NCBI GenBank assembly: GCA_016845205.1
Contig: JAERTA010000114.1
Span: 1-46,710, forward strand
DNA from: Gammaproteobacteria bacterium
GTDB lineage: Bacteria; Pseudomonadota; Gammaproteobacteria; PS1; Pseudothioglobaceae
Reading direction: 5' to 3'
DNA length: 46,710 bases
The translations under genes were made by a program, and so were the position numbers. The notes beneath the pieces are model-generated. The model was not told where the DNA came from, did no database searches, and saw only the letters and a list, made by a program, of their open reading frames with translations. Position 1 is the stretch's first letter; every line of letters begins with the position of its first letter. Shown here one piece after another: positions 3,371 to 4,872 of the stretch.

Positions 3371-3892
3371 ATGAAAAACGTAACAAAAGCAATCGCGATT
3401 GCAACAGTAATGGCTTCAGCAGTGGCAACAGCGGGTTGGGGTGGTAATAACTCTAACTGGGGCCCTTTCTCAGGTGGTAACAACTGGGGTCCTTTTGATG
3501 GTGGCTCTAACATGGGCCCTATGAATAGCGGCTCTAACTGGGGCCCTTTCTCAGGTGGCAACAACATGGGTCCATTTGGTGGTGGTTCTAATGCCGGTCC
3601 TTTTTCTGGTGCTCAAAACTGGGGCCCTTTCCAAGGCGGTAATAACTGGTTAAACAATACTGATTTCGGTACAAAGTTTAACACTAGCAATAAGACTGAC
3701 ACAAACGCTTCAGGCGCAGCTGACGGCTCTGCTTCTGGTTCAGGTGATGCCAATGCTAAAGGTGTTGCAGATGCTTATGCTAAAGGTGTAGCTGACGCAC
3801 AAGCACAAGCACAAGCAGACGCTTACGCTAAAGGCTATGCAGACGCAATGGCTTCAGGCACCGCTTCTTCAAACGATGCTGCTGCTAAGTAA
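3371..3892 (+). CDS. Secreted low-complexity Gly/Asn/Trp-rich repeat protein (sulfur-globule-protein-like candidate)
   Basis: 173 aa; SD AAGGAG, signal peptide MKNVTKAIAIATVMASAVATAG, seven ~9-aa repeats (S/D)GG(N/S)N(W/M)GPF, then an Ala/Asp-rich (ADAYAKG) tail. Confidence 0.6.
   Translation: MKNVTKAIAIATVMASAVATAGWGGNNSNWGPFSGGNNWGPFDGGSNMGPMNSGSNWGPFSGGNNMGPFGGGSNAGPFSGAQNWGPFQGGNNWLNNTDFGTKFNTSNKTDTNASGAADGSASGSGDANAKGVADAYAKGVADAQAQAQADAYAKGYADAMASGTASSNDAAAK
3445..3650 (+). repeat. Tandem ~27-bp coding repeat (xGGxNxGPF)
   Basis: Repeated ggc-cct-ttc-tca-ggt-ggt-aac-aac-tgg-type units. Confidence 0.75.
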
Positions 3893-3937: not shown

Positions 3938-4014
3938 ATTGGACGCTCAAAAAAAGTAATATTGATTATCGTCCAAAATAAACTAAAAAAACTTCCACCC
4001 CCCCATCTTTGTTT

Positions 4015-4166
4015 TATAATTAGATTATTAATGTTGTCGTTGGTTTATAAAACAGCAAAGTTTCTGATTTGACTTGCTACCTCTTGCCCAACGACAATAT
4101 TAACCCAAACATTCTAAGGAGATGAGAGTGTGAAAAATAAAGAGGCGCCTTGATTGGCGCTTTTTT
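4015..4166 (+). ncRNA. Candidate structured sRNA (promoter, 16-bp stem, terminator)
   Basis: TATAAT at 4015-4020; 16-bp stem TTAATGTTGTCGTTGG (4028-4043) / CCAACGACAATATTAA (4088-4103) with one GU; inner stem 4054-4061/4072-4078; intrinsic terminator GGCGCCTTGATTGGCGCTTTTTT ending ~4166. Confidence 0.55.
4139..4166 (+). terminator. Rho-independent terminator of candidate sRNA
   Basis: GCGCC-TTGATT-GGCGC followed by TTTTTT. Confidence 0.75.
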
Positions 4167-4416: not shown

Positions 4417-4587
4417 ATGGGGTTTGGAGTGACTGAATTACTCATAATATTAGTAATTGTACTACTGATTTTTGGGGGTAAACGCTTAAAGAATATTGGC
4501 AGCGACCTTGGTGGCGCCATTAAAGGGTTTAAAAAATCCATAAAAGATGAGCAAAATATAGAAACCAAAGCGATTAAGCAAAAGTAA
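4417..4587 (+). CDS. tatA: Sec-independent translocase subunit TatA
   Basis: 56 aa [56 protein letters not shown] (not in ORF track); FGGKRLxxIGSDLGxAIKGFK TatA motif. Confidence 0.9.
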
Positions 4588-4590
4588 TGC

Positions 4591-4872
4591 ATGTTTGATA
4601 TCGGTTTTTGGGAGTTTGCGCTTATTGGTGTTATTGCGCTTATTGTTGTTGGGCCCGAAAGAATGCCAGCTATCGCAAGAAAAGCGGGCCACTATATTGG
4701 AAAAGCAAAAAAAATTACCAATAAAATCCAAGAAGATATTTCTACTGAGCTTGATACTGATACCCTTAAAGAACAACTTAACTTTGAAGATCAGAGTCTA
4801 GGGGTTGGTGATATATTGCAAGATACCAAAAACACCTTAAACGATATTAAAGATAGTGGCAATAAAGATTAG
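4591..4872 (+). CDS. tatB: Sec-independent translocase subunit TatB
   Basis: 93 aa MFDIGFWEFALIGVIALIVVGPERMPAIARKAG. Confidence 0.92.
   Translation: MFDIGFWEFALIGVIALIVVGPERMPAIARKAGHYIGKAKKITNKIQEDISTELDTDTLKEQLNFEDQSLGVGDILQDTKNTLNDIKDSGNKD

Follow-up and report, generated by a model that had tools for sequence, protein, structure and literature searches.

The window, which is the whole stretch of 46,710 nucleotides analysed here, carries on its forward strand at positions 4028 to 4166 a putative small RNA (sRNA) gene, delimited from the base of a long stem to the end of the U tract of an intrinsic terminator on the basis of its fold, its homologs and the lack of an Rfam match. The gene is located after a gene for a glycine-rich protein and before tatA/tatB, a position that we call locus A. 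The glycine-rich protein (3371-3892) looks exported and has no Pfam match, and seven matches to it were found in its own genome, several of them in tandem (C67). The tatA/tatB pair occupies 4417-4872, with a second tatB-like gene elsewhere in this genome, on contig C107. The region between 432 and 8352 encodes hemerythrin, NnrS, cytochromes, a Crp/Fnr-type regulator and a flavocytochrome c sulfide dehydrogenase and represents a sulfur/nitrogen redox cluster.

The predicted RNA folds with a minimum free energy of -47.2 kcal/mol, compared to a mean of -25.3 kcal/mol (sd 3.0) for dinucleotide-shuffled sequences (z -7.2), and none of the 200 shuffles matched this stability. The coordinates of the features between 4015 and 4166 were counted by hand. 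The most prominent part is stem 1, in which the 5′ arm (4028-4043) pairs with the 3′ arm (4088-4103) over 16 bp with one G-U, as already seen in the preliminary description of the locus, which was made from the letters alone. The first 10 bases of the 5′ arm (TTAATGTTGT) are invariant among four close copies (see below), and the changes in the 3′ arm are compensatory or wobble. The smaller hairpin proposed to be enclosed in the long stem is present in the window but it is not conserved in relatives. The fold recovered both the long stem and the intrinsic terminator (4139-4166, AAAGAGGCGCC-TTGATT-GGCGCTTTTTT), whose arms at 4139-4149 and 4156-4166 are kept in the copies. It also revealed a weak 7-bp hairpin at 4109-4131, stem 2, which had been missed and in which 4109-4115 pairs with 4125-4131. 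The loop of this hairpin, loop 2 (4116-4124, AAGGAGATG), is Shine-Dalgarno-like (SD-like) and contains AAGGAG at 4116-4121; AAGGAGA is fixed in the four close copies and GGAG in 5/5. The purine-rich segment with an SD described earlier is therefore there, but it is not plainly single-stranded.

The TATAAT reported at 4015-4020 is present in the sequence and would be the -10 box of the sRNA promoter, from which we infer a start site at about 4027. The 21 nt at 4000-4020 recur without change at the orthologous position in another metagenome-assembled genome (MAG; copy L008). A two-hexamer promoter scan listed no site ending at 4020 and no canonical -35 box; as the -10 box is perfect, its omission by the scan indicates that there is no good -35 box. 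Judged by its sequence, the promoter fit of the sRNA is weak.

Searching the own genome at the DNA level, we recovered a second copy (L002) on another contig (C15), and the relatives G005, G006 and G007 carry orthologs of this second copy (E 1e-8 to 1e-10). These copies occupy locus B, which is bordered on one side by a soxA-like cytochrome gene (Pfam SoxA-TsdA_cyt-c) with its 107-aa neighbour and on the other by a 65-aa small gene, the latter followed by a PsiE-family gene. The locus B copies are convergent with the soxA-like operon; no same-strand gene follows them directly, and tat genes are absent there. In a search with a covariance model the window copy and the four locus B copies scored 123-152 bits. 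The model was built from four copies and these match by construction, so the independent support comes from the DNA search. The rest of the 83 genomes of the bacterial family gave at most 41.6 bits, in a search run with stricter filters that distant members could have escaped. The weak matches that we opened (L014, L033-L035) were terminators, such as the one that follows a cytochrome oxidase subunit III-like gene. Homologs in other genera were rejected as candidates, with scores of 42 bits or less outside the five main loci in the 83 family genomes and with terminators in the cases that were opened.

The genome G007, a Candidatus Ruthturnera sp. MAG, belongs to the genus carrying the sRNA family and also has a copy at locus A (L008). 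This copy has the same -10 region, a similar terminator and the GGAG-loop hairpin, but a wholly different 5′ hairpin. Its covariance model score is 38.3 bits and we accepted it as a family member on synteny and architecture, not on the score. Compared with the window copy, the G007 sequence (L008/L067) looks as if the 5′ half of the RNA had been swapped. At locus A of G003, just the 5′ part of a copy is left (L006/L068), joined to the end of a lolA-like gene. The sRNA is absent at locus B both in this genome (L054) and in G001. As read from these sequences, the family is variably present within one genus.

A GTDB pattern scan returned G007 (two loci) and G006 plus eight matches in unrelated lineages, which fit the handful estimated by chance. 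The sRNA was not found in phage and plasmid records, and no viral contig matched its pattern. No family of Rfam 15 reached its gathering threshold over the sRNA, the sole match being one tRNA at 277-349; below threshold, the sRNA was overlapped on its strand at best by sraA, with 20.8 bits against a threshold of 56. The novelty suggested by the preliminary description thus stood up to the Rfam check. A literature search on sRNAs of SUP05-type bacteria yielded nothing specific. The sRNA family is new and lineage-restricted, and belongs to the known kind of intergenic bacterial sRNAs, with an unusual invariant SD-like loop.

In stem 1, 98.2 % of the cells are paired among the four distinct copies, counted on arms aligned by hand because the automatic alignment had misplaced a gap. 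Pair 11 was seen as C-G, G-C, G-U and A-U, and sliding the stem 1 partner lowers the pairing to 33-68 %. The observed covariation was reached by 39/500 shuffles, a weak control, which is not surprising for four sequences. Across five copies, pairing is kept in 88.6 % of the stem 2 cells, and this hairpin displays no excess covariation. Its GGAG is mostly unpaired in 5/5 copies, with the lowest single-base probability about 0.67. In four copies AAGGAGA is invariant at 7/7 positions, whereas the ten bases after it average 48 % identity. Mean identity is 85 % in the linker, 85 % in the terminator part and 51 % in the stem 1 interior. Invariance is just as strict in the 5′ arm of stem 1 as in the SD-like loop, so the active part could lie in this arm. 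At locus B, the pairwise identity is 72-75 % in the sRNA, compared with 57-66 % immediately downstream and 51-84 % immediately upstream. The structured sRNA with its own terminator proposed in the preliminary description is accordingly conserved in relatives, with some covariation in stem 1, across only four or five distinct sequences. It has the own terminator, the conserved structure and the lack of a conserved ORF that characterise an independent intergenic sRNA gene. We are highly confident that it exists as a conserved structured element, and it is probably transcribed as a free sRNA.

Regarding coding potential, the window contains two overlapping GTG codons after the SD. The second one (4130-4132), 8 nt past AAGGAG, does encode MKNKEAP as previously read, but the first one (4128-4130) lies only 6 nt past AAGGAG and is stopped at once by TGA. 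The corresponding codons are ATG-TAA in L002 and GTG-TAA in L003 and L004, while L005, the locus B copy of G007, reads GTAGAA without a start. As the copies differ in the start and stop after the SD, the peptide is not conserved; the micropeptide MKNKEAP was rejected on these grounds, and the idea of a dual sRNA/micropeptide did not hold. The GTG-TGA itself (4128-4133) lies partly within the 3′ arm of stem 2. Most copies, but not all, keep a start-stop element of this kind, whose bases take part in stem 2 as well. One might imagine that the strong SD recruits ribosomes which initiate at GUG or AUG and stop one codon later (GUGUGA, AUGUAA, GUGUAA), so that the RNA occupies or idles ribosomes or the ribosomes shield it from nucleases. 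E. coli can initiate and terminate at GUGUGA/AUGUGA sites (PMC9841429), and the window copy has the same GUGUGA after its SD. The start-stop lies 6-8 nt past AAGGAG in the window, L002 and L003/L004, and L008 has an AUGUGA further down. However, the E. coli sites precede a real gene, whereas the sRNA family encodes nothing and L005 has no start codon there; the ten bases past the SD are poorly conserved, and RRUGU is explicable by pairing with ACAUU in stem 2. We consider this minigene improbable.

Two other explanations were assessed from the gene neighbourhood and from the set of RNA-binding proteins. The RNA had been described as lying upstream of tatAB, and tatA does begin approximately 250 nt downstream on the same strand, which would suit a tatAB leader or attenuator instead of a free RNA. 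The proximity is incidental, as the second locus, between the soxA-like operon and the small gene, is without tat genes, and the copies there face the convergent operon with no same-strand gene directly downstream. We have rejected the leader on this basis and give it very little credence. The GGA in a hairpin loop of 5/5 copies resembles the CsrA sites of CsrB/RsmY-type sponge RNAs, but these have many such hairpins and the RNA here just one, with one GGA within 4028-4166. Moreover, no CsrA was found above the cut-off in the 25 family genomes searched, including the own genome (97.3 % complete), with positive controls, and a CsrA/RsmA-type sponge was rejected as the least credible of all the readings considered; it would require that the GGA be bound by some unrecognised protein. 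Hfq was likewise found in 0/9 genomes of the genus, the own included (controls positive), and ProQ/FinO in 0/9 (E. coli control positive). Chance loss of each of the three proteins from an incomplete MAG is possible, but for all nine genomes together it is unlikely. The lack of CsrA and Hfq matches in the genus argues against a CsrA sponge and also against an Hfq-dependent RNA. The sRNA shares the independent gene, intrinsic terminator and U tail with Hfq-dependent enterobacterial intergenic sRNAs, but differs from them by the genus having no Hfq match.

The remaining alternative was a conventional antisense sRNA that, like cyanobacterial Yfr1/Yfr10, masks the SDs of its target mRNAs, here with the pyrimidine-rich CCUC/ACCU loop in the 5′ stem. 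A largely unpaired CCUC or CACCUU stretch is present within the 5′ stem of 5/5 copies. The Yfr motif is located between stems in Yfr1 and in a loop in Yfr10, and exchanging its UCCU abolished the interaction with the ppa target (PMC6778093). Against it, few parts are less conserved than the interior of the 5′ stem (51 % identity), and there was no excess of pairing with the 43 start regions of the window, although a regulator with few targets would show none either. When loops 1 and 2 were compared with the start regions of these 43 ORFs, the pairing was no better or marginally better than with shuffled loops and no targets were found. Self-pairing between loop 1 and loop 2 was weak and variable (-4 to -10 kcal/mol, computed without control). 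On both strands of the window we counted 20 sites similar to ACAACATTAA, the complement of the invariant 5′ arm, with at most one mismatch vs 9.6 expected, and no shuffle reached 20. We regard the antisense role of the 5′ stem as unlikely. The network of Yfr1/Yfr10 and Yfr2 (PMC6778093) is the nearest functional analogue, by its occurrence in a streamlined marine bacterium and by its short conserved unpaired motif. We claim no relation, and the sRNA family has no Rfam match. What is invariant in it is the purine, SD-like side of the pairing, and it combines SD-like and CCUC-like stretches in one molecule.

The reading that we prefer, at about even confidence, is that the sRNA gene is independent and belongs to a genus-restricted family with two copies near sulfur-oxidation genes, and that the SD-like loop is the working part. 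The loop mechanism taken separately is slightly less secure. The exposed SD mimic put forward in the preliminary description draws its backing from two levels, the structure (GGAG loop) and the conservation (AAGGAGA). AAGGAG occurs in 7/43 and AGGAG in 12/43 start regions of the window; SDs of the AAGGAG type are therefore in normal use in this genome and loop 2 imitates a good local ribosome site. Transcription would give a stable RNA of about 140 nt, which would work without Hfq, CsrA or ProQ. Its SD-like loop could pair with pyrimidine-rich RNA, be it a UCUCCUU-type site in an mRNA, a CCUC-bearing RNA or the 16S anti-SD (the 3′ end of the 16S was not found in the MAG), and the RNA would thereby act as a decoy or an antisense regulator. 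The upstream regions differ between the two copies, which could allow the loop to be produced under more than one set of conditions. A more far-reaching version, which we consider rather doubtful, is a chaperone-free SD decoy made from the two loci near sulfur-oxidation genes. Its hairpin would present a strong SD that no usable gene follows, and would tune translation by capturing 30S subunits or anti-SD-like RNAs.

The RNA would represent an sRNA family of uncultured sulfur oxidizers that have no Hfq, CsrA or ProQ match, encoded beside soxA-like, tat and flavocytochrome c genes. Should its function reside in the invariant SD-like loop, the family would raise the question whether an RNA can regulate by imitating a ribosome-binding site.
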